The translations under genes and the position numbers were made by a program. Shown piece after piece: positions 924 through 24,533 of a DNA stretch of 33,165 nt. The DNA comes from Exiguobacterium sp. (GTDB lineage Bacteria > Bacillota > Bacilli > Exiguobacteriales > Exiguobacteriaceae), in NCBI RefSeq assembly GCF_020832205.1, contig NZ_JAFIFD010000004.1:1-33165 (forward strand), read 5' to 3'. Position 1 is the first letter of the stretch, and each line of letters begins with the position of its first letter. Below the pieces are notes generated by a model, which worked only from the letters and a program-made list of their open reading frames with translations, was not told the DNA's origin and searched no databases.

Positions 924-1313
924 GAGACTATGCTGTCCTGTAAGCCATGTTCTGTACTCCGGTGCTCATAACGGTCTCCCTGGCACGATGGAGTGACAAT
1001 CATCTATCTGCGCCGTCTGGCGCCCTCCGTCCCGTTCGGTTCCGGTCAGGAAGTTCCCCTACCATAGTTTGGGTTTCTCGCTCGTGGGGTTTACCTCGTT
1101 CCACTCTGAACGTTTCCGGTCAGACTCCGTCACTGTGGCACTTTCAAGAAGCTTGCACCATATCCGAGGACTTAGGTGCTTCTTCTGCCGTCAACTTGCG
1201 TTGCCTACACTTATCTTTTCGTGTAGCACGATCACTACAGCCATCACAGGCTGTGCGAGCATGGACTTTCCTCAAGACTTGCGTCCCGCGATTGTCCAGA
1301 CCTCATAGTCACT
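924..1313 (-). ncRNA. rnpB: RNase P RNA, bacterial type B
   Basis: This is the catalytic RNA of RNase P, which matures tRNA 5' ends. On the minus strand the conserved elements appear in order: GAGGAAAGTCCATGCTCGCAC, then TGACGGCAGAAGAAG, CTTGAAAGTGCCACAGTGACG, GAGTGGAACGAGGTAAACCC, GAGCGAGAAACCCAAA with GGTAGGGGAA, AGATAGATGATTG, and finally ACAGAACATGGCTTACAG. These match the B. subtilis type B RNA as I remember it. The ends are set by helix P1 (GACTATG near the 5' end pairing with CATAGTC near the 3' end). The length of about 390 nt is close to the 401 nt of B. subtilis. A strong promoter precedes it and a terminator follows. Apparent reading frames across it are spurious. Confidence 0.96.
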
Positions 1314-1894: not shown

Positions 1895-3351
1895 GTCTCT
1901 TCGATCGTTTCGACCGGTTCTTCAACCGGTGGCGCGGCCGGCACGTATGTGTTTGAGACGACACGTTCCGAGATGTCGGTCGGCTTCAAGACGACCGTCA
2001 AGTTCGAGGCCGTGTCGCCGCGCACCGGGAACGTACCCGGAACGTGGAGCGCCTCATAAACGGTTTTCCCGGATGCATCGAGCACCGTGACGACCCCTTT
2101 CCGTGTCGTCGTCAACTCGAACGTCTGCGCATCGGCCGCTTTGACCGAGACGCTCGGTTTGACCGGGTTGACGTACGTGACGTTACGGCTAGAGGAACGC
2201 TTATACTTTCCGTCCGAGACGACGGCCGTGAGCCGATACTGTCCGCTCGGTAACCAGTCTCCGCCGGCATACATCGTGAAGGCGCCGCCGTTCGCCGGGA
2301 GCGTCTTCACTTTCCGCGTCCCTTGATAGAGAGTGTACGTCGTTTTCAAGTTCGGCCGATTCATGACGGAAAGTTTTGCCTCTTGGACGTACCGGTTCGT
2401 GAGCGTCGCCGGGGCCGAGATGGACACCGGGCGCGGCGTCGCGTCGAGCAACCGTTTCGTATTGAGCTCCGTGTACGCCTTCCCGCTCACGCGAGGCATT
2501 TTTTGTAGCAACCCATCGATGTCGGTCGGCGTCAAGAACGGATTCACTGATTTGACGAGTGCGATGCCTGACGTCACCATCGGCGCCGCCATCGACGTGC
2601 CGTCCATGAAGATGAAACTGTTCTTCAGCCCGAGCGACAAGACGTTGACACCAGGAGCCACCACTTTCACTTGGCTGTCCATGTTCGAGAACGCGGCGAC
2701 CCGATGCCGTGAATCGACCGCTCCGACGGCGATGACTTCTTTCATGTTCGCAGGGAACGATACTTTTGTCGCACCATCGTTGCCCGACGAGGCGACGATG
2801 ACGACGCCTTTCGCCCGCGCCCGTTTGATCGAGTCGGCGAGCACGCGATCATAGTCTTGACCTCCGAGCGATAAGTTGATGATCGTCGCCCCTTTCGCGA
2901 CCGCCGTGTCGACGGCTTTCGCGACCGTCCATGAATCCGTGAACTCTGAGTTCTTGCCATAAAAGACGTTATAAAAATGATAGCGGACGTTCGGGGCGAG
3001 CCCGGCGATCCCGTATTTATTATGCAGCCCAGACATGATGCCGGCCGTATGCGTGCCGTGATAATCGATACTGTATGGACCTTTCATCGAATTGACGACC
3101 CGCGGGACGTTCAACAACTCTTTGTGGGTCCGGTCGGCAGATGAATCAATCAACGCGACGACGATGTCGGCGGCGCCTCGAGTCGTGTTCCACGTCAAGT
3201 CGGTCCCGGTCTGTTTGATATAGTACTGGTTTCCGACACGCGGCTCTGCCACGACGTAGCCATGCTTCTCGAGAATCACTGGTTTTGACTCCGCCCCGGC
3301 CGTCGTCGGGACGAGTAACGTCAACGCCGTCAACAATAAGATTTTTTTCAT
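1891..3351 (-). CDS. Secreted S8 subtilisin-like serine protease, 486 aa
   Basis: A signal peptide (MKKILLLTALTLLVPTTAGA, about residues 1-20) predicts secretion. The catalytic residues appear in subtilase order: Asp69 (ALIDSSAD), His98 (YHGTHTAGI), oxyanion Asn191 (SSGNDG) and Ser253 (DGTSMAAPM). The Asp motif is DSS rather than the usual D-S/T-G. Only about 45 residues separate the signal peptide from the catalytic domain, so no full-size I9 propeptide is visible. Residues of about 310-470 form beta-rich, probably Ig-like segments (YTLYQGTRKVKTLP; VVTVLDASGKTVYE), and the C-terminus is an acidic Pro-Val-Glu tail. I prefer the ATG at 3351 because a GGAG lies 9 bases upstream; an in-frame ATG at 3366 has no ribosome binding site. 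Substrate is unknown. Confidence 0.9.
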   Translation of the reverse strand: MKKILLLTALTLLVPTTAGAESKPVILEKHGYVVAEPRVGNQYYIKQTGTDLTWNTTRGAADIVVALIDSSADRTHKELLNVPRVVNSMKGPYSIDYHGTHTAGIMSGLHNKYGIAGLAPNVRYHFYNVFYGKNSEFTDSWTVAKAVDTAVAKGATIINLSLGGQDYDRVLADSIKRARAKGVVIVASSGNDGATKVSFPANMKEVIAVGAVDSRHRVAAFSNMDSQVKVVAPGVNVLSLGLKNSFIFMDGTSMAAPMVTSGIALVKSVNPFLTPTDIDGLLQKMPRVSGKAYTELNTKRLLDATPRPVSISAPATLTNRYVQEAKLSVMNRPNLKTTYTLYQGTRKVKTLPANGGAFTMYAGGDWLPSGQYRLTAVVSDGKYKRSSSRNVTYVNPVKPSVSVKAADAQTFELTTTRKGVVTVLDASGKTVYEALHVPGTFPVRGDTASNLTVVLKPTDISERVVSNTYVPAAPPVEEPVETIEET

Positions 3352-3455: not shown

Positions 3456-3863
3456 TTACCAATAGTCCGGGATCTCCGCGTGTTCCATCTCAAAATCGAC
3501 GATCCTTCCGATCGTCAAATACGTGTAATAGCGGGCAAGTTCCGTCCGGTACGGGTCTGGTGTGAACCCATCCAAGTCCTCGCCGAGCGGCGAACCGTCA
3601 ATCGTCTCGAACTGTTGACAAAAAAACGACTCCGTCTCTTTGTTCCAGACGATCGTGTCTCCGATGTATCCGCTCCCGAAACGGATGTAATCGATGACGG
3701 AAGGGACGATTACCTCGGCCGGGAGCCGTTCACTCATGCGGCCGACGAGTTCATACCGATCACGCTCCGCAAAGACCGCTTCTTCGAGCGACGTGCACTT
3801 CAACACTTCTTTGTTGATTTCAATCAACACGATATAGTCCCCAGACTCAATCGACAGCTTCAT
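3456..3863 (-). CDS. Hypothetical protein, 135 aa
   Basis: I do not recognise this protein. The start MKLSIESGDYIVLIEINKEV is preceded by GAGGTG at suitable spacing, which favours 3863 over an in-frame ATG at 3884. The product is acidic, soluble, without signal or membrane segments, and ends EMEHAEIPDYW. It contains many Glu, Asp and aromatic residues and a single Cys pair is not conserved in spacing (one Cys near residue 22, one near 81). It sits between the protease (same strand, 104 bases downstream) and the divergent gene at 4035. No terminator is evident between it and the protease. Function unknown. Confidence 0.7.
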   Translation of the reverse strand: MKLSIESGDYIVLIEINKEVLKCTSLEEAVFAERDRYELVGRMSERLPAEVIVPSVIDYIRFGSGYIGDTIVWNKETESFFCQQFETIDGSPLGEDLDGFTPDPYRTELARYYTYLTIGRIVDFEMEHAEIPDYW

Positions 3864-4034
3864 CTCTTCACCTCGTCTCCACATCCCATTGTTAGCTCTA
3901 TCTTAACAAATATTCGGAGAAAAACACCGAAATCCTGTGAGCCTGTACAAATTTTCCATTCGGTCGATTCATACAACATGAAGAAATCGGTTTTTGCTAT
4001 ACTAAGGTATATGACCGTAGAGAGGAAGTGCAAC

Positions 4035-4922
4035 ATGGCCAAACGTCCTTTGACCCCTCGCGAGAGCGAGCTGATCGCGACCGCTTTGTTCGTTATCGGC
4101 ACCGTCCCATATAACGGGCACATCGACCGGCTCGAATCGCTCACGCTTCGCGACATCGCCGACGACTATTTGTCTGGGAAGCGCTCTGTCACCGAGGCGA
4201 TCGACGCCTTGGACCAATACATCCACGTCCGGCGCCATCGCTTCAAAAATGTCACACCCCACAACTTATGGACGCTCGACGACCGGACCGAGCAAGAGGC
4301 GCTCCGTTATATCGTGCGACGGCCCGAGTTGAAGAAAGGGCAGACGCTGAACAAGAAAGATCAACCGTACCAAGTCGGCCAAGACGTCGAGTTCAAAGTC
4401 GACAAACATGTCGACCGTGGACAGTTCCGCATCTATATCGGCAAACAGAACGGTTTCACGTTCAAGGCCCAGTCGAAAGACAAAGACAAGTTGAAGGCGG
4501 CGAGCGGCTGGATCACGCACATGGATTTGAAAGACCGTCTCGTCTTCGTCAACCTCACCGATTTCGGCCGGCAACCGATCGACCCGGAGATCAAACAGGC
4601 ACTTGAAGCGATGAGCGCCTCCCTCCTCGGCTGGTTCGCCACGGCGACGCTCCCGACCGAGGATGAGGCGAAGACGGCGAAACAAATGATCGCCACCTTG
4701 CAGCGCCGCGATCAACCTTATTGGTTCACGTTGACGACAGCGATGAACCATCCGAAACCCGAGCACGTGAAGCGCTGGGGGGCGTTCGTCAACTTGCTCG
4801 TGAAAGCGAGCACCGGGGACGCTTCGGCGATCGAGACGCTCGAGACACAAGAAGATAAATATTTCAAAGATGCCTTTTTGCGGGCGATGCGTGCCCTGCA
4901 CGGAGAACTGGCGCCCAAGTGA
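4035..4922 (+). CDS. Hypothetical protein, 295 aa
   Basis: I do not recognise a family. The start MAKRPLTPRESELIATALFV follows GAGGAAG; the frame stays open far upstream (to 3480), but that stretch overlaps the opposite-strand gene at 3456 and lacks a ribosome binding site. Residues 1-70 look helical with a small hydrophobic stretch (LIATALFVIGTVPY). Residues of about 95-180 are rich in Lys, Asp and beta-type patterns (GQDVEFKVDKHVDRGQFRIY), and the C-terminal third is helical. There is no clear catalytic motif, signal peptide or Cys cluster. A terminator follows at 4932. A TATACT near 4004-4009 could be a -10 box, but I find no convincing -35. Confidence 0.75.
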   Translation: MAKRPLTPRESELIATALFVIGTVPYNGHIDRLESLTLRDIADDYLSGKRSVTEAIDALDQYIHVRRHRFKNVTPHNLWTLDDRTEQEALRYIVRRPELKKGQTLNKKDQPYQVGQDVEFKVDKHVDRGQFRIYIGKQNGFTFKAQSKDKDKLKAASGWITHMDLKDRLVFVNLTDFGRQPIDPEIKQALEAMSASLLGWFATATLPTEDEAKTAKQMIATLQRRDQPYWFTLTTAMNHPKPEHVKRWGAFVNLLVKASTGDASAIETLETQEDKYFKDAFLRAMRALHGELAPK

Positions 4923-4931
4923 CTACGATTC

Positions 4932-4965
4932 AAGCGGTAACGGCCACAGCCTTTGCCGCTTTTTC
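4932..4965 (+). terminator. Intrinsic terminator after the 295-aa gene
   Basis: AAGCGGTAA (4932-4940) pairs with TTGCCGCTT (4953-4961), including one G-U pair, with an inner GGC/GCC extension, and is followed by TTTT. Only 24 bases then remain before the hssR start, so hssR must be read through or use a promoter upstream of or within this hairpin. Confidence 0.7.
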
Positions 4966-4988
4966 ACCGTTTAGAAAGGAAGGGTCCG

Positions 4989-5654
4989 ATGCACGTATTG
5001 ATTGTAGAAGATGATGAACACATTCTCCGCTTGCTCGACGACACCATGCAACGGGCCGGTCATTCGACGACGTTGACGACCGATCCGACCGTGGCCGAGA
5101 AGCTGTTCACCGAACGGCCGGCCGATGCCGCCGTCATCGATGTGTTGCTGCCGGGTATGGATGGACGCGAGCTATGCCGTCGACTGAAGATGCTGCTCGA
5201 CGTCCCGGTCATCTTGTTGACCGCACTCGGTGAATGGGACGATAAACGAAGCGGTTTTGAACACGGCGCCGACGATTACATGACGAAGCCGTTCATTCCC
5301 GATGAACTGTTGTTCCGGCTCCAAGCCGTCGCGAAACGGTATGAGCGGACGGCACAGACGATCGTCCAAGCCGGTCCGCTCACGCTCGATTTGCGTGACT
5401 ACCGCTTGAACGTCGATGGCGAGACGATGCACTTGCCGAAACGTGAATTCGAGTTGTTGTACCAGCTCGCCGCCTTCCCTTCTCGCGTCTTCAGCCGCGA
5501 TGAGCTGATTGAGAACGTCTGGGGCTTGGATTTTGACGGGGACGACCGCACCATCGACGTGCATATTAAGCGACTGAGAAGTCGTATCCGCCATGAACAA
5601 GTCGTGATCCGGACGGTGCGCGGGGTCGGCTACGCCCTCGAGGTGATGACATGA
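4989..5654 (+). CDS. hssR: OmpR-family response regulator, HssR-like
   Basis: The 221-residue protein has an N-terminal receiver domain (acidic Glu7-Asp8-Asp9, phosphoacceptor Asp51 in AVIDVLLPGMDG, Lys in DDYMTKPF) and a C-terminal winged-helix DNA-binding domain (LPKREFELLYQLAAFPSRVF; DDRTIDVHIKRLRSRI; VRGVGY). The string DFDGDDRTIDVHIKRLRSRI closely resembles the corresponding part of Staphylococcus HssR as I recall it (DYEGDERTVDVHIKRLRQRL). The start ATG follows AAGGAAGGG. It overlaps the kinase gene by 4 bases (ATGA) and is followed by heme-efflux-type hrtBA genes, so the likely role is activating hrtBA in response to excess heme. The receiver/wHTH class is certain; the HssR name rests on similarity and context. 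Confidence 0.88.
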   Translation: MHVLIVEDDEHILRLLDDTMQRAGHSTTLTTDPTVAEKLFTERPADAAVIDVLLPGMDGRELCRRLKMLLDVPVILLTALGEWDDKRSGFEHGADDYMTKPFIPDELLFRLQAVAKRYERTAQTIVQAGPLTLDLRDYRLNVDGETMHLPKREFELLYQLAAFPSRVFSRDELIENVWGLDFDGDDRTIDVHIKRLRSRIRHEQVVIRTVRGVGYALEVMT

Positions 5655-7006
5655 AGACACTCTATACGCGCATCGTCTTGACAGTGTTCTTCATTTTACT
5701 TGCCTCGGGCGCCATCGCCCTCCTCGTCAGCAACGTCGCCTATTACGTCTGGTGGCAACCGTCGTATAGTGAAAAGACCGAACGGACGGCGAGCACGGCC
5801 ATCGGCTATTTCGAGAACCATACCGACCAAGACGAGGCCGCCTATTACTCACTCCTCGCGAGGACGGGTTATCAGTTGCTCGTCGTCAAGGCGGACGGAC
5901 GCATCATGCGCTATGGGGGAGAGTTTCGCAACGAAACGATGGACGACGAAGTCATCCGCTCCGTCCGTGACGGAAACGTTTACGAAGGGATGCGCGACTA
6001 TCCGTTCCATCTCTTTCTGCTCGGGCTGTTCGACAACGAGGTCGTCAACACGTACGGCTTTCCGTTGACCGGCAGTGACGGGGTGGACGCGGTCTTCATG
6101 CGCCCCGATCTGTCCGCACAAATTCGTGAGCTCCACTTGTTCGTCGGTCTCTTTTTTGCCACGTTGACCGTTCTGGCGTTTCTGTTGATCGCGCTGGCGA
6201 CCCGAAATATCGTCCGGCCCGTCAAAGCGCTGACCTTTGCGACGGCCTCGGTCGCTTCGGGCACGAGACCACGCGACTTGCCGCTTGAACGGTCAGACGA
6301 GATCGGCGTGCTCGCGAGACGGTTCGATGACATGGCTGAGACGCTTGAAAAGTCTGAGGCAGAACGGAAGCGGTTCGTCTCGAACGTCTCCCATGAGTTC
6401 CGCTCCCCGCTCACGTCGCTTACCGGATATGCGACGAGACTCGTCGAAACGACCGACGGTGAGGCGAACGACTATGCGCGCATCATTCGAGACGAGACGG
6501 AACGGCTATCGGGGCTGACGACACAGTTGCTCTTGCTCGCCCGACTCGATGAAGCGGATATCACCCTAGAGACGGACATCGTCCTCGCCGATTCGATCGA
6601 GGACGTCATACGCGGCCTGTCTTTCCAACTCGACCAGACAGGCGTCGCCATATCGACCGACCTCGACGCGTCCATCATCATAAAAGGCGACCCGCTCCTG
6701 CTGTCACAAGTGTGGGCCAACTTACTCCAAAATGCCCTCCACGCCTCACCTGAAGGCGGGCTGATCCGTGTCCGTCTGGAACAACTCGAACGGCCGACCG
6801 TGACGATCACCGACGACGGCACCGGCATGGACGAAGCGACGAAAACACGCCTGTTCGAACGTTTCTTCCAAGGAGACGTTTCCCGGTCAACGACCGGGAC
6901 AGGACTCGGCCTGTCCATCGTCCACGATATCGTCGCCTTGCACCGTGGAACGATTCATGTCGATTCGACGCCTGGGCGCGGCACCGTGTTCACAATCACA
7001 TTGTAG
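5651..7006 (+). CDS. hssS: Membrane sensor histidine kinase, HssS-like
   Basis: The 451-residue kinase has membrane segments at about 7-29 and 160-184, an extracytoplasmic sensor domain between them, HAMP (to about 235), HisKA with phospho-His248 (SNVSHEFRSPLTSL), and HATPase_c with N box (LLQNALHAS), G1 (DDGTGMD) and G2 (GTGLGLSIV). Sensor features such as DYPFHLFLLGLFDNEV and AVFMRPD resemble S. aureus HssS (KPFALFVTGFFDN; AVFMRPD). HssS senses heme or heme-related membrane stress and phosphorylates HssR. The ATGA overlap implies translational coupling with hssR. It ends 64 bases before hrtB, and the HssR-like repeat starts 3 bases after its stop. Confidence 0.87.
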   Translation: MKTLYTRIVLTVFFILLASGAIALLVSNVAYYVWWQPSYSEKTERTASTAIGYFENHTDQDEAAYYSLLARTGYQLLVVKADGRIMRYGGEFRNETMDDEVIRSVRDGNVYEGMRDYPFHLFLLGLFDNEVVNTYGFPLTGSDGVDAVFMRPDLSAQIRELHLFVGLFFATLTVLAFLLIALATRNIVRPVKALTFATASVASGTRPRDLPLERSDEIGVLARRFDDMAETLEKSEAERKRFVSNVSHEFRSPLTSLTGYATRLVETTDGEANDYARIIRDETERLSGLTTQLLLLARLDEADITLETDIVLADSIEDVIRGLSFQLDQTGVAISTDLDASIIIKGDPLLLSQVWANLLQNALHASPEGGLIRVRLEQLERPTVTITDDGTGMDEATKTRLFERFFQGDVSRSTTGTGLGLSIVHDIVALHRGTIHVDSTPGRGTVFTITL

Positions 7007-7008
7007 CC

Positions 7009-7028
7009 GTTCATACTCCGTTCATATT
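7009..7028 (+). promoter_or_regulatory. Candidate HssR-binding direct repeat in the hrtB promoter
   Basis: GTTCATACT (7009-7017) and GTTCATATT (7020-7028) are separated by 2 bases. This equals the GTTCATATT-N2-GTTCATATT direct repeat I recall for HssR at the S. aureus hrtAB promoter, with one mismatch. A -10-like TATGCT follows at 7036-7041, so the repeat occupies the -35 zone, as expected for an OmpR-type activator. Confidence 0.8.
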
Positions 7029-7038
7029 CATCCGCTAT

Positions 7039-7070
7039 GCTTCCTTCATCGACATGAAGGAGGCTTTTTT
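7039..7070 (+). terminator. Terminator-like hairpin containing the hrtB ribosome binding site
   Basis: GCTTCCTTCAT (7039-7049) and ATGAAGGAGGC (7054-7064) form an 11-bp stem (one G-U) with a CGAC loop, followed by TTTTTT (7065-7070) and directly by the hrtB ATG. The 3' arm contains the whole AAGGAGG Shine-Dalgarno sequence. A transcript reading in from hssS would form the hairpin; one started at about 7048 from the -10 at 7036 would lack most of the 5' arm. Confidence 0.65.
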
Positions 7071-8075
7071 ATGCAATTAGGAATGAAAGAAATGTGGCGC
7101 CAGCGACGCCGCTACTCATTGATTTTCGTCATCACTCTCCTCATCGTGCTGTTGACGACGCTCATCACCGGACTCGCCGACGGGCTCGCCTATGACAACG
7201 GGGCGAGCATCCGCGAACTCGATGCCGAGACGTTCCATTTGACCGCCGACGCAGATGGACGACTGACGCGGTCGTTTATCGAACGAGCACCAACCGACAC
7301 GATGACCCCACTCGCTGTCAAACCGCTCACGTTCGGGAACGAGACGAAACAAGATGCGACCTTGTTCGCCATACCGGCCGCTTCTTCGGTCGGACCAACG
7401 CTCGACCTTGCCGTCGGCGAAGTGCTCGTCGATCCGAGTTTCCTAGGGACGTTAGCTGTCGGCGACACGGTCGACGATTTTGCGAGCGGTTATCGTTTCA
7501 CGATCGTCGGGACGACAGAAGGTCGCTTCAGCCACGCCCCGGTCGTCTGGACGACGATGGAGACATGGGACGCATACCAACAAGTCGCCGGCGGGCCCGT
7601 GTACGTCTCGGCTTGGCTCGGAGAAGGCGACACCCCCCTCTCGACGTTCACGAAGCAAGAAATCATCGAGGCCGTGCCGGGGTATTCGGCCGAACAAGGC
7701 ACGTTCACGATGATGCGCGGATTTCTCTTGGTCATCGGCGCATTCATCTTGACGGCGTTCTTCTACATGGTCACGCTGCAAAAATTGCCGGAACTCGGGA
7801 TATTAAAAGCGATCGGCATCCGGACGCGTACGATCGGCACCGCGCTCGTCAGCCAAGTGATGCTGACCGTCATCCTCGCGAGCGGTTTGGCGGCTCTCTT
7901 CACGGCATTCATGGCGGAAGTCGTACCGGCAGCCATTCCGTTTCAATTTGACGTGGCGAACGCGTTGCTCTACAGTACGCTGTTCTTCATCATCTCGCTC
8001 GCCGGGACACTGCTCCCGCTCTACACATTACGCCGGCTCGACGCCGCAGACGCATTAGGAGGTCGAATGAAATGA
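7071..8075 (+). CDS. hrtB: ABC transporter permease, HrtB-like heme efflux/regulator
   Basis: The 334-residue FtsX/MacB-fold permease has one N-terminal membrane segment (about 17-40), a large extracytoplasmic domain (about 45-215), and three C-terminal segments (about 222-250, 268-298, 305-328). The N-terminus (LGMKEMWRQRRRYSLIFVIT) resembles HrtB/DevC permeases. In the family, HrtB with HrtA extracts excess heme from the membrane. The ATG at 7071 follows AAGGAGG at 7-base spacing; the frame is open upstream to 6945, but that part overlaps hssS. It overlaps hrtA by 4 bases. Gene order here is hssR-hssS-hrtB-hrtA on one strand, unlike the divergent S. aureus arrangement. Confidence 0.85.
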   Translation: MQLGMKEMWRQRRRYSLIFVITLLIVLLTTLITGLADGLAYDNGASIRELDAETFHLTADADGRLTRSFIERAPTDTMTPLAVKPLTFGNETKQDATLFAIPAASSVGPTLDLAVGEVLVDPSFLGTLAVGDTVDDFASGYRFTIVGTTEGRFSHAPVVWTTMETWDAYQQVAGGPVYVSAWLGEGDTPLSTFTKQEIIEAVPGYSAEQGTFTMMRGFLLVIGAFILTAFFYMVTLQKLPELGILKAIGIRTRTIGTALVSQVMLTVILASGLAALFTAFMAEVVPAAIPFQFDVANALLYSTLFFIISLAGTLLPLYTLRRLDAADALGGRMK

Positions 8076-8707
8076 GACTGACAGCGATTCATCACGCCTA
8101 TGAACAACCGATCTTATCCGGGGTCAATTTGACCGTCTCGCCTGGCGAGTGCATCGCCATCGTCGGACCGAGCGGCAGCGGCAAGAGCACGCTGCTTCAA
8201 ATTCTCGGGTTGCTGAAACGTCCCGATGCGGGAACGTTACATCTCGGTCCGGTCGATGTGTTCACACTCGACGAAGAAGCGCGGCGAAAGTTACGCTTGA
8301 ACGAGATCGGTTTCGTGTTTCAAGACGCCCACCTCGTCCCATATTTGACGGTCATGGAACAACTCGAGCTCGTCCAAGCGGAGACGGGACTTGCTACCGA
8401 CTCGAGACGATTATTGACCGACCTCGGTCTCGGTCATCGGTTGAACGAACTGCCGAATCGGCTTTCCGGCGGCGAACGGCAACGGGTCGCCATCGCACGT
8501 GCCCTCGTCAACGACCCTTCTCTCATCTTGGCCGATGAGCCGACAGCGAGTCTTGACTACGTGAACGGGCGCCTCGTCATGGAACGTCTGGCCGCGGCCG
8601 CTCATGAAGACGGCAAACGAGTCATCGTCATCACACATGACGAGCGAATGCTCGACGTCTGCGACCGCGTGCTCCGCCTGCGCGATGGTCAGCTCGAGAC
8701 GTTGTAA
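8072..8707 (+). CDS. hrtA: ABC transporter ATPase, HrtA-like
   Basis: The 211-residue nucleotide-binding subunit shows Walker A (GPSGSGKST, residues 32-40), a Q-loop region ([19 protein letters not shown], much like S. aureus HrtA), signature [15 protein letters not shown], Walker [13 protein letters not shown] and the switch His in VITHDE. It belongs to the MacB/LolD-like group that pairs with FtsX-type permeases. It couples to hrtB through an ATGA overlap and is the last gene of the unit, followed by a bidirectional terminator. The protein has a short N-terminus: the first strand goes almost straight into the core, so it is about ten residues shorter than the S. aureus protein. Confidence 0.88.
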
Positions 8708-8740
8708 AAAGGGAGTGGCGCATGCCACTCCCTTGCTTTG
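8708..8740. terminator. Bidirectional terminator between hrtA and the convergent 139-aa gene
   Basis: GGGAGTGGC (8711-8719) pairs with GCCACTCCC (8724-8732) across a 4-base loop. AAAAA lies on the left flank (U-tract for the minus strand) and TTGCTTTG on the right. Confidence 0.85.
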
Positions 8741-9160
8741 TCAGCCGGCCTGATGCCGTCCGGGGTTACAGATGTCACCGAGGTGATGAGACAGCCAAGC
8801 GCTGAATGTGATTCGAACGGAAATCGTCCGCAACGCATCGATTTCCATCTGTTGAATCGTGAACAGTCGTTCCTCGATATAGTTCGAGACGAGGAAGATG
8901 TCCGAGAGCGCAAGCATCGCCTGAACCGCCTCGTCCGGTCGGACACCCGCATCGCCGGCGAGTTCGACGACTGCCACGTGAACGTCACGACCGCCCCCGC
9001 TCAAGTAACGCTCGATCAAGGCATCGAGCACAGGCGAAAGATCGCTGGATGTGTGCGTTCCCCGTCGGTAAAACGAGACTCCTTCTTCTGTCACATAGTC
9101 CACTCGTCCTCCGATGCAAGCTTGTATGAATCGATACATCGCCTCGCGCGTCACTTTCAT
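8741..9160 (-). CDS. Hypothetical protein, 139 aa
   Basis: I do not recognise this protein. The start MKVTREAMYRFIQACIGGRV follows a GAGGGTGG ribosome binding site. It is soluble, with alternating helical segments (LSPVLDALIERYL; PDEAVQAMLALSDIFLVSNY) and no signal peptide or catalytic motif. The C-terminus HHLGDICNPGRHQAG has a small His/Cys cluster that may or may not matter. The gene runs convergently into hrtA with a shared terminator, and divergently from the alpha/beta hydrolase across 173 bases. Function unknown. Confidence 0.65.
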   Translation of the reverse strand: MKVTREAMYRFIQACIGGRVDYVTEEGVSFYRRGTHTSSDLSPVLDALIERYLSGGGRDVHVAVVELAGDAGVRPDEAVQAMLALSDIFLVSNYIEERLFTIQQMEIDALRTISVRITFSAWLSHHLGDICNPGRHQAG

Positions 9161-9281
9161 CCACCCTCTCTTCGTCCTCTACCGTCTCAGTTTAACGGGA
9201 AGGGATGACCATGACGACCGCCGCTCTGTGAACGTTCCGTCGCACCTCGTCCTCACAGCTCGTGACGTTATAGGTTGGAAC

Positions 9282-9311
9282 GTGAACGCAACGAGTGTTT
9301 TCGGGTACAAT
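9282..9311 (+). promoter_or_regulatory. Possible promoter of the alpha/beta hydrolase gene
   Basis: A -10 TACAAT (9306-9311) with a weak -35 GTGAAC (9282-9287) at 18-bp spacing precedes the gene at 9334. The -35 is poor, so the call rests mainly on the -10. Confidence 0.4.
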
Positions 9312-9333
9312 AATGAGGAAAGGAGCGATGTTC

Positions 9334-10233
9334 ATGCAACGAAAATGGAAATACGGGCTCGCGACATTATTCACCGGCTATTACGCCGTCAGTTATTATG
9401 CGTTCAAACGAATGACACGGGGGAAACGTAAGACGCCAGAGATGTTGCTCGCGCCGTACACGACAGAGGACCAATCTTTTTACCACGACGTGCCGTTTGA
9501 ACACGTCTCGCTCCGTTCGAGAGACGACTATCGCCTATACGGCCGCGTGTATCGCAACGGCGACGCCCGGAAGTGGATCGTCTTCGTCCACGGCTACACG
9601 GCCTCGCATAGTTTCATGGCACCTCATTTGGCCATGTTCCATCGGCTCGGCTACAATTTGCTCGCCGTCGACTTGCGCTCGCACGGGGAATCAGAAGGTG
9701 TCTACGCCTCCTACGGTTACCACGAGAAGCATGACATCGTCGCCTGGGTCGATTGGCTGCGCGCCAATGAGACGGTGGAAGAAATCGGACTCCACGGTGT
9801 ATCGATGGGAGCCGCGACGATCCTTCAGGCGGGACCGCTCACAGACGTCGACTTCTTGATCGCCGAGTGCCCGTTCGACGATATGCGACAATTGATGCGC
9901 CATCAGTTGAACAACTTGCACCGGCTGCCGGGTGACTTGTTGTTACCGGGTATCGACTATTTCTTATGGAGCCGGGCCGGCTTTCGGATGAATCAAGTGC
10001 GGCCGAAACGAGATTTGGCGGAAACGACCGCACCGATTCTGTTCATTCACGGCACACGCGATGATTTCGTACCGACGTGGATGTCCGTCGAGATGAACGC
10101 CCTCAACCGTCAAAATGAGATCGCCCTCATCCACGGTGCCGAACATACGAACTGCATCTTAAAAGATCGTGACGCGTACGAAGACGCCGTCACACAGTTT
10201 TTGACTCGTCGACATGAATCGGTCCAGCGATGA
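9334..10233 (+). CDS. Membrane-anchored alpha/beta hydrolase, YqkD-like
   Basis: The 299-residue serine hydrolase has an N-terminal hydrophobic segment (about residues 8-24) likely to anchor it. The catalytic triad is visible: Ser157 in GVSMG, Asp243 in GTRDDFVP and His271 in GAEHT; VHGYTASH supplies the oxyanion region. Length and layout match the B. subtilis YqkD type, whose substrate is not known to me. The ATG at 9334 is 8 bases after AAAGGAG; the nearer ATG at 9328 is too close. Its 3' end overlaps the convergent CPBP protease gene by 44 bp, and no terminator separates them. Confidence 0.85.
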   Translation: MQRKWKYGLATLFTGYYAVSYYAFKRMTRGKRKTPEMLLAPYTTEDQSFYHDVPFEHVSLRSRDDYRLYGRVYRNGDARKWIVFVHGYTASHSFMAPHLAMFHRLGYNLLAVDLRSHGESEGVYASYGYHEKHDIVAWVDWLRANETVEEIGLHGVSMGAATILQAGPLTDVDFLIAECPFDDMRQLMRHQLNNLHRLPGDLLLPGIDYFLWSRAGFRMNQVRPKRDLAETTAPILFIHGTRDDFVPTWMSVEMNALNRQNEIALIHGAEHTNCILKDRDAYEDAVTQFLTRRHESVQR

Positions 10234-15787: not shown

Positions 15788-15822
15788 CACTCGTCCAATT
15801 GAAATCCATTAGAAAAAGTGCC

Positions 15823-15906
15823 ACACTTCCTCACGCCGGTATTACCCGGATCGAGTCATAAGGGATCGGAGCCATGCTCACATCTCAGCCGAAGCACCCC
15901 TAGTGT
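15823..15906 (-). promoter_or_regulatory. TPP riboswitch (THI box)
   Basis: On the minus strand the conserved parts occur in order: GGGGTGC, CGGCTGAGAT, a variable arm, then ATCCCTTATGACTCGATCCG, GGGTAATACCGGCGT and GAGGAAGTG. Helix P1 forms between ACACT (15906-15902) and AGTGT (15827-15823). It controls the ykoFEDC importer by the downstream attenuator. Confidence 0.96.
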
Positions 15907-15940
15907 AGTCCAATGTATGCGGTTTGTTCATGCAAGGAAC

Positions 15941-21436: not shown

Positions 21437-21540
21437 CATATCGATATCTTGAGTGAACGAGAGACCTGGCTCTATGACTTCACAGCAACCTGCTACGGCA
21501 AGGTGCTACTTCCAGCAAGGCGACTGCCTTGGACGATATG
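21437..21540 (+). promoter_or_regulatory. SAM-I riboswitch (S box) upstream of msrA
   Basis: The conserved S-box elements occur in order: CGAGAGACCTGGCTCTATGA, CAGCAACC, GCAAGGTGCTACTTCCAGCA. Helix P1 forms between CATATCG (21437-21443) and CGATATG (21534-21540). A terminator hairpin follows at once, so SAM binding should shut off msrA. Confidence 0.93.
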
Positions 21541-21546
21541 ACAAAA

Positions 21547-24460: not shown

Positions 24461-24533
24461 GGGGCATTAGCTCAGCTGGGAGAGCGCCACGCTGGCAGCG
24501 TGGAGGTCAGCGGTTCGAGCCCGCTATGCTCCA
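24461..24533 (+). tRNA. tRNA-Ala (anticodon GGC)
   Basis: The 73-nt cloverleaf folds fully: acceptor GGGGCAT/ATGCTCC, D stem GCTC/GAGC, anticodon stem CCACG/CGTGG with loop CTGGCAG (anticodon GGC), T stem AGCGG/CCGCT with loop TTCGAGC, discriminator A73. The G3-U70 pair that identifies alanine tRNAs is present. The 3' CCA is not encoded. Confidence 0.97.

Follow-up and report, generated by a model that had tools for sequence, protein, structure and literature searches.

A promoter-derived hairpin in the hrtB leader of Exiguobacterium as a candidate insulator against read-through from hssRS

The leader of hrtB in Exiguobacterium sp. is probably a read-through insulator that is built from the promoter itself and freed by a heme-induced start inside a hairpin. 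RNA running in from hssRS would include the sequence of the -10 element and start site, and its positions 7039-7049 would pair with 7054-7064; as this pairing covers the Shine-Dalgarno region, we propose that hrtB is left untranslated from such RNA. In the genus-level clade of the analysed strain (g1) the stem and its U run may also end the hssRS transcript. Once HssR is activated by heme, transcription would start near 7048, within the 5' arm, and the resulting RNA, devoid of that arm, would have an open ribosome site. The reading is based on sequence, predicted fold, conservation, promoter spacing and a statistical link with tandem gene order, from which we infer the start point, the translation block, termination and control by heme.

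The stretch of DNA analysed as a whole (33,165 nucleotides, hereafter the window) encodes the elements of an HssRS-HrtBA module, namely an OmpR-type regulator, a kinase, an FtsX permease, an ABC ATPase and an HssR repeat in front of the hrt genes. All four genes lie on the plus strand: hssR (4989-5654; OmpR-family response regulator, Pfam Response_reg and Trans_reg_C), which owes its name to the gene order and the HssR-type box, hssS (5651-7006; sensor histidine kinase, Pfam HAMP, HisKA and HATPase_c), hrtB (7071-8075; FtsX-type permease, Pfam FtsX and orthologue search) and hrtA (8072-8707; ABC ATPase, Pfam ABC_tran). The proteins are of ordinary families. The NCBIfam scan gave only below-cutoff names for the regulator, the kinase and the ATPase and none for HrtB, and no family model specific for HssR, HssS or HrtB matched in Pfam or NCBIfam. 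Relatives with 70-81% HrtB identity include E. aurantiacum, E. alkaliphilum and E. chiriqhucha. The hssS stop at 7006 is 64 nt upstream of the hrtB ATG, and the hssS transcript would run into hrtB.

Elsewhere in the window, an ORF at 3480-4922 on the plus strand has no Pfam or NCBIfam match, but is well conserved from about codon 160-170 onward in all 12 genus relatives searched. The real gene start is therefore probably near 4035, where an ATG is preceded by a purine-rich stretch.

The leader itself is compact. An HssR-type direct repeat, GTTCATACT-CC-GTTCATATT (7009-7028, plus strand; half-sites 7009-7017 and 7020-7028), begins just 3' of the hssS stop, with no ordinary terminator in between, and is followed by the -10 element TATGCT (7036-7041, plus), identified by its spacing from the box across hrtB loci. 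The 5' arm of the hairpin, GCTTCCTTCAT (7039-7049, plus), overlaps both this element and the predicted transcription start, an A at 7048 on the plus strand, 7 nt after the -10. The 3' arm, ATGAAGGAGGC (7054-7064, plus), holds the whole Shine-Dalgarno sequence AAGGAGG. The two arms form 11 pairs, five of them G-C and one G-U, around a CGAC loop, and a terminator-like run of six T (7065-7070, plus) links the hairpin to the start codon, the hrtB ATG following directly at 7071. The repeat, the TATGCT, the 11-bp hairpin with its enclosed Shine-Dalgarno and the six T, as reported in the preliminary description, are exact to the base on direct reading. Within the window the repeat is the sole match at one mismatch or fewer (0.22 expected by chance). 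The genome contains three exact-pattern matches, and only the one at hrtB has a TANNNT 7 nt after the 20-nt box; the other two (C7 and C45), having no such element at the right place, were rejected as a second HssR target.

The predicted folds differ between the two kinds of RNA. The stretch 7039-7070 folds at -16.1 kcal/mol (z -5.5), which none of 200 shuffles equalled, whereas in RNA 7048-7090 the same stem is absent and the energy (-4.0 kcal/mol, z -0.02) is like that of its shuffles. The wider 101-nt RNA 6990-7090 stands out only slightly by its total energy (z -1.8), which 10 of 200 shuffles equalled. With 75 nt of upstream RNA, opening the hrtB Shine-Dalgarno would cost 13.9 kcal/mol in the predicted fold, and this ranks first among the window's 33 candidate gene starts, an uncurated, script-picked set of ORFs of at least 120 amino acids with a Shine-Dalgarno sequence; the next value is 7.6. 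A simple terminator scan lists the hairpin site as a stem with a U-tract, and terminator-like sites in 4800-9400 are not in excess over shuffles (2 found, mean 4.0). A sigma-70 consensus scan did not list the hrtB promoter. A known riboswitch or cis-acting RNA was rejected, since Rfam models gave only isrL in 6800-7300, whose 13 bits fall short of the cutoff of 35. The Rfam scan of the whole window had no gathering-score match at the hrtB leader; it identified a class B RNase P RNA (936-1303, minus strand), a TPP riboswitch (15811-15911, minus), a SAM riboswitch (21441-21541, plus) and a tRNA (24461-24533, plus).

The position of the start point was addressed by comparison. In 209 of 211 hrtB loci, and in 65 of 67 cluster representatives, a distance of exactly 7 nt separates the 20-nt box from a TANNNT, and every other offset scanned accounts for at most 16 loci. 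The 211 loci, duplicates included, are those of 250 with at least 11 of 12 box matches (the 67 representatives are without duplicates), and the -10 was not used as a criterion when choosing them. Seven bases past the -10, 62 of 74 representatives have a purine, and 61 of the 74 have a pyrimidine one base earlier. Such a fixed spacing gives good support to transcription beginning near 7048, within the 5' arm, and we place the putative hrtB start at A7048; the preliminary description had put it in the same arm, in agreement with both the spacing and the pyrimidine-purine step. If transcription instead began upstream of 7039, the hairpin would belong to the normal heme-induced mRNA and would hold its translation down, either constantly or in a regulated way, comparable to the small hairpin at the ribosome-binding site of sigG that, according to PMC5942855, dampens expression 2-4-fold. 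This is improbable, as the -10 spacing and the pyrimidine-purine step put the start inside the arm and the pairing signal tracks the presence of hssS upstream.

Conservation was examined in g1, where 18 of 19 genomes gave an HrtB match, and in its sister clade, g2, where all 19 did. The stem is preserved at every one of the 18 g1 loci, even where HrtB identity falls to 52%, and each locus has at least five T after it, while the spacer between box and -10 varies. In an alignment of 12 distinct leaders, which represent 17 of the 18 loci (L017 was left out), 131 of 132 cells are paired, a single leader having one mismatch, and the outer pair is G-C, A-U or G-U; slid controls pair at 39-62%. Formal covariation is thin because 8 of the 11 pairs never vary; one pair changes on both sides, a count that 372 of 500 shuffles reach.

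In g2 the T-run is absent. Nine of the 19 loci have a seven-pair stem, TCCTGTA/TACAGGA, both arms of which differ from those of g1 and which encloses part of the Shine-Dalgarno, and in six others the stem is down to five or six pairs or otherwise weaker, L021 among them having almost no masking by energy. In L032-L034 the only stem lies beside or upstream of the Shine-Dalgarno, and L036 (E. flavidum) has no stem from the -10 onward. The comparison across related loci called for in the preliminary description upholds the hairpin throughout g1, and in g2 only in part (strong in 9 of 19 loci, with other arms).

Two of the collected loci are unusual. L017 (E. profundum, same genome as L064; about 2502-2545, minus strand) keeps the hairpin, has a longer T-run and is missing the hrtB start codon, possibly through natural inactivation or an assembly error. 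In L037 (G030:C1:1211996-1213017) hrtB matches as two separate pieces (residues 1-72 and 81-332), which suggests a broken gene.

For the wider comparison, loci were collected from several sources. A first search matched 73 of 151 genomes, from which g1 and g2 were taken completely together with 13 of the more distant matches; a second source contributed the best 80 of 426; a third matched 191 of 398 genomes, of which 60, mostly high-scoring, were taken, with L222 and L223 the only members of distant families. Further sources matched 102 of 197, 3 of 11 and 15 of 80 genomes and were used in part. Together these made 250 oriented leaders, with some genomes represented more than once. The script excluded 20 leaders: 19 with no recognisable box and L017 for its absent start codon. 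Removal of exact duplicates left 203 (155 tandem, 48 not), and removal by hand of L223, whose box is poor, gave 202. L054-L076, most of L134-L163 and most of the unused L224-L260 (repeats of genomes already included) are outside the leader set, as is L162, which is not a repeat genome. The 19 leaders set aside for their box include eight hrtB-like Listeria loci (L080, L088, L091, L096, L099, L120, L123 and L128), and no hssS was found in the 2.5 kb upstream of any of the eight.

Beyond Exiguobacterium the arms are made of other sequences. Many Paenibacillus leaders have, in the 7-nt spacer between box and -10, either CCTCC facing GGAGG or GCTTCC facing GGAAGC, the latter partner sitting just after the Shine-Dalgarno, and they keep the masking without a T-run. 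L132 (P. ferrarius), with no hssS upstream, has a spacer devoid of the GCTTCC arm, while its tandem relatives L108, L119 and L131 keep it. In some Bacillaceae-type leaders the arm facing the Shine-Dalgarno is the HssR box, and ten leaders were folded that show this pairing. Eight of these are tandem (L039, L044, L077, L083, L092, L097, L105 and L114), the folded stretch having a predicted energy of -24 kcal/mol or lower, and two are not (L112 and L133). Box-arm leaders also contain a ATGAATGGAGATGAAC-like sequence, approximately the reverse complement of the HssR box, which pairs with the box in the predicted fold; it may serve as an arm in the RNA or be an additional HssR site read from the opposite strand. 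Three clusters follow yet another route, as the folds of L041, L171 and L172 pair the -10/+1 promoter region with the start codon and codons 2-5; L168 and L173 are their cluster mates. In L111, L118 and L263 the -10 lies within a 10-11-bp stem that ends just before the Shine-Dalgarno, and this arrangement ranks at the bottom of the masking test. In the predicted folds the common feature is geometry and not sequence, i.e. an arm present solely in read-through RNA and paired with the initiation region.

These leaders bear on a rival explanation, in which the hairpin does no more than terminate hssRS transcription, lies next to hrtB by coincidence and masks the ribosome site incidentally. The 11-bp stem with its six T and the T-run of all 18 g1 loci are as expected of a terminator, and in 3 of 39 scanned tandem loci with a long hssS-hrtB gap (L040, L178 and L183) hssS is separated from the box by an ordinary terminator, which also fits insulation as the need. 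We nevertheless consider it unlikely, as g2 and Paenibacillus leaders mask without a T-run, the 3' arm is the Shine-Dalgarno itself and three clusters mask the start codon instead.

Masking was next tested against gene order. The 202 distinct leaders comprise 155 that directly follow an hssS gene of the same strand and 47 with a box but other genes upstream; tandem was defined as a tblastn HssS match on the same strand ending at most 400 nt from hrtB, with 1 to 2.6 kb of upstream sequence examined. The masking penalty is the cost of opening the initiation region in read-through RNA minus that in promoter-start RNA, and was compared between a leader's own promoter segment and those of other clusters. 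In this swap test the 51 tandem clusters had a median of 9.0 against 4.5 kcal/mol, with 22 in the top 5% (one-sided p=1.5e-9), and the 23 non-tandem clusters 6.3 against 5.7 kcal/mol, with 2 in the top 5% (p=0.25). The two groups differ (p=5e-7; p=2e-4 with coarser clusters, 32 and 14), but all p-values of the gene-order comparison are optimistic since clusters share ancestry. The raw penalty alone differs more weakly (p=0.012, and 0.16 with coarser clusters). When the promoter was shuffled outside the -10, 25 of 51 tandem and 3 of 23 non-tandem clusters were in the top 5% (difference p=0.0018), with a weak signal in the non-tandem group too (p=0.037). In the box-arm loci spacer shuffling does not weaken pairing, so the specificity there lies in the leader.

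The link is also seen within protein groups, here split by a crude N-terminal motif: the tandem difference has p=0.00022 in the HrtB group that includes 49 of the 51 tandem clusters (49 and 12 clusters), and p=0.026 in the remaining, small group (2 and 11 clusters). As a same-locus control, hrtB was compared with hssS in the 39 of 51 tandem representatives that could be scored, and in 31 of them hrtB was the more occluded gene. Swap-test ranks are 0.99 for the window's clade and 0.97 and 0.73 for the two halves of g2, the last value belonging to the weaker half (9 loci, representative L021). Exceptions occur on both sides: of the tandem loci, the L118 cluster (3 loci) and L272 rank lowest in the test, and of the non-tandem ones the L241 cluster (5 loci) and L243 keep the pairing. 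The measure was widened from the Shine-Dalgarno to the initiation region after the start-codon cases had been seen; by the Shine-Dalgarno-only measure 25 tandem clusters gave p=0.0007 and 7 others p=0.81 (difference p=0.013). L041, L168, L171, L172 and L173, which looked like masking failures by that narrower measure, were rejected as such, their promoter arm being paired with the start codon and codons 2-5.

Could the pairing be a matter of chance or composition, a pyrimidine-rich stretch from the -10 to the start pairing with any purine-rich Shine-Dalgarno and kept by descent? There are few changes within g1, any CCTCC-like stretch would pair, and the non-tandem group has its weak signal in the shuffle control. 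The outcome of the swap and shuffle controls, the different arms in different families and the first rank of hrtB occlusion among the gene starts of the window make this very improbable, the least probable of the explanations considered.

Two proposals of the preliminary description, that the ribosome site is masked in read-through RNA only and that this insulates hrtBA from hssRS, are both supported by the comparison across Bacillales, the second because masking tracks the hssS-hrtB tandem order. A broader rule can be formulated, to which we give an even chance: where a sensor operon lies directly upstream of its output operon, the regulated promoter (operator, spacer, -10 and start site) and the leader would be selected to fold, in RNA transcribed through them, into a hairpin covering the ribosome site or start codon of the output gene, recurrently and with various sequences across Bacillales, with the response-regulator box as an arm in some lineages, and more weakly where sensor genes are not upstream.

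The transposase genes of IS10 and IS50 are protected from read-through by an inverted repeat, which covers the start signal in RNA entering from outside but not in other RNA; unlike the hrtB leader, this repeat belongs to the end of a mobile element. A close likeness is B. subtilis sigG, which has a promoter of its own and is also transcribed from the spoIIG operon upstream; according to PMC5942855, a large hairpin has been proposed to keep the RNA arriving from spoIIG from being translated, and transcripts begun at the sigG promoter are unable to form it. That case concerns a sporulation sigma gene and a hairpin of 20 or more pairs, whereas here a short hairpin stands between a two-component system and its output operon, its arm consists of the -10 and start site, and one clade adds a T-run. 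Phage genes offer a second likeness: in T4 I-TevI, I-TevII, I-TevIII and segB and in mobE of phage Aeh1, early read-through RNA hides the ribosome site, and RNA from the local promoter is without the needed sequence (PMC2988022, as far as the available text goes, which also states sequestration of the ribosome-binding site for T4 soc and e). Those serve phage timing, and, unlike at hrtB, the same text names no two-component regulator or U-tract. As in sigG and the I-TevI type, the hrtB ribosome site is, in the predicted fold, within the 3' arm of a stable hairpin.

With these precedents the kind of arrangement is already known, and the preliminary view that it was undescribed does not hold. 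For hssRS-hrtBA itself we found no description of a read-through hairpin in the open-access literature. The direct-repeat box is needed for hrt induction (PMC6305404, PMC3968170), and in Listeria monocytogenes hssRS is upstream of hrtAB, whose start point has been mapped (PMC6305404); the available portions of these two accounts mention no leader hairpin, whereas one is predicted in the hrtB leader described here. The novelty seems to lie in where the device stands, between a two-component system and the operon that it controls, and in its repeated construction from different sequences in connection with gene order. We would also call new the Exiguobacterium hairpin made of -10, start site and Shine-Dalgarno followed by a U-tract, and the use of the operator itself as an arm in other lineages.

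Compact operons can place a regulated promoter right behind the genes of its own regulator with no terminator between them. The hrtB locus suggests that the leakage may be stopped at no cost in DNA, by reusing the promoter as an arm against the ribosome site. If true, this would offer an explanation for low basal expression of hrtBA in tandem loci and would provide many natural replicates along with a natural control, the non-tandem loci; the same device could insulate stacked genes in synthetic circuits.
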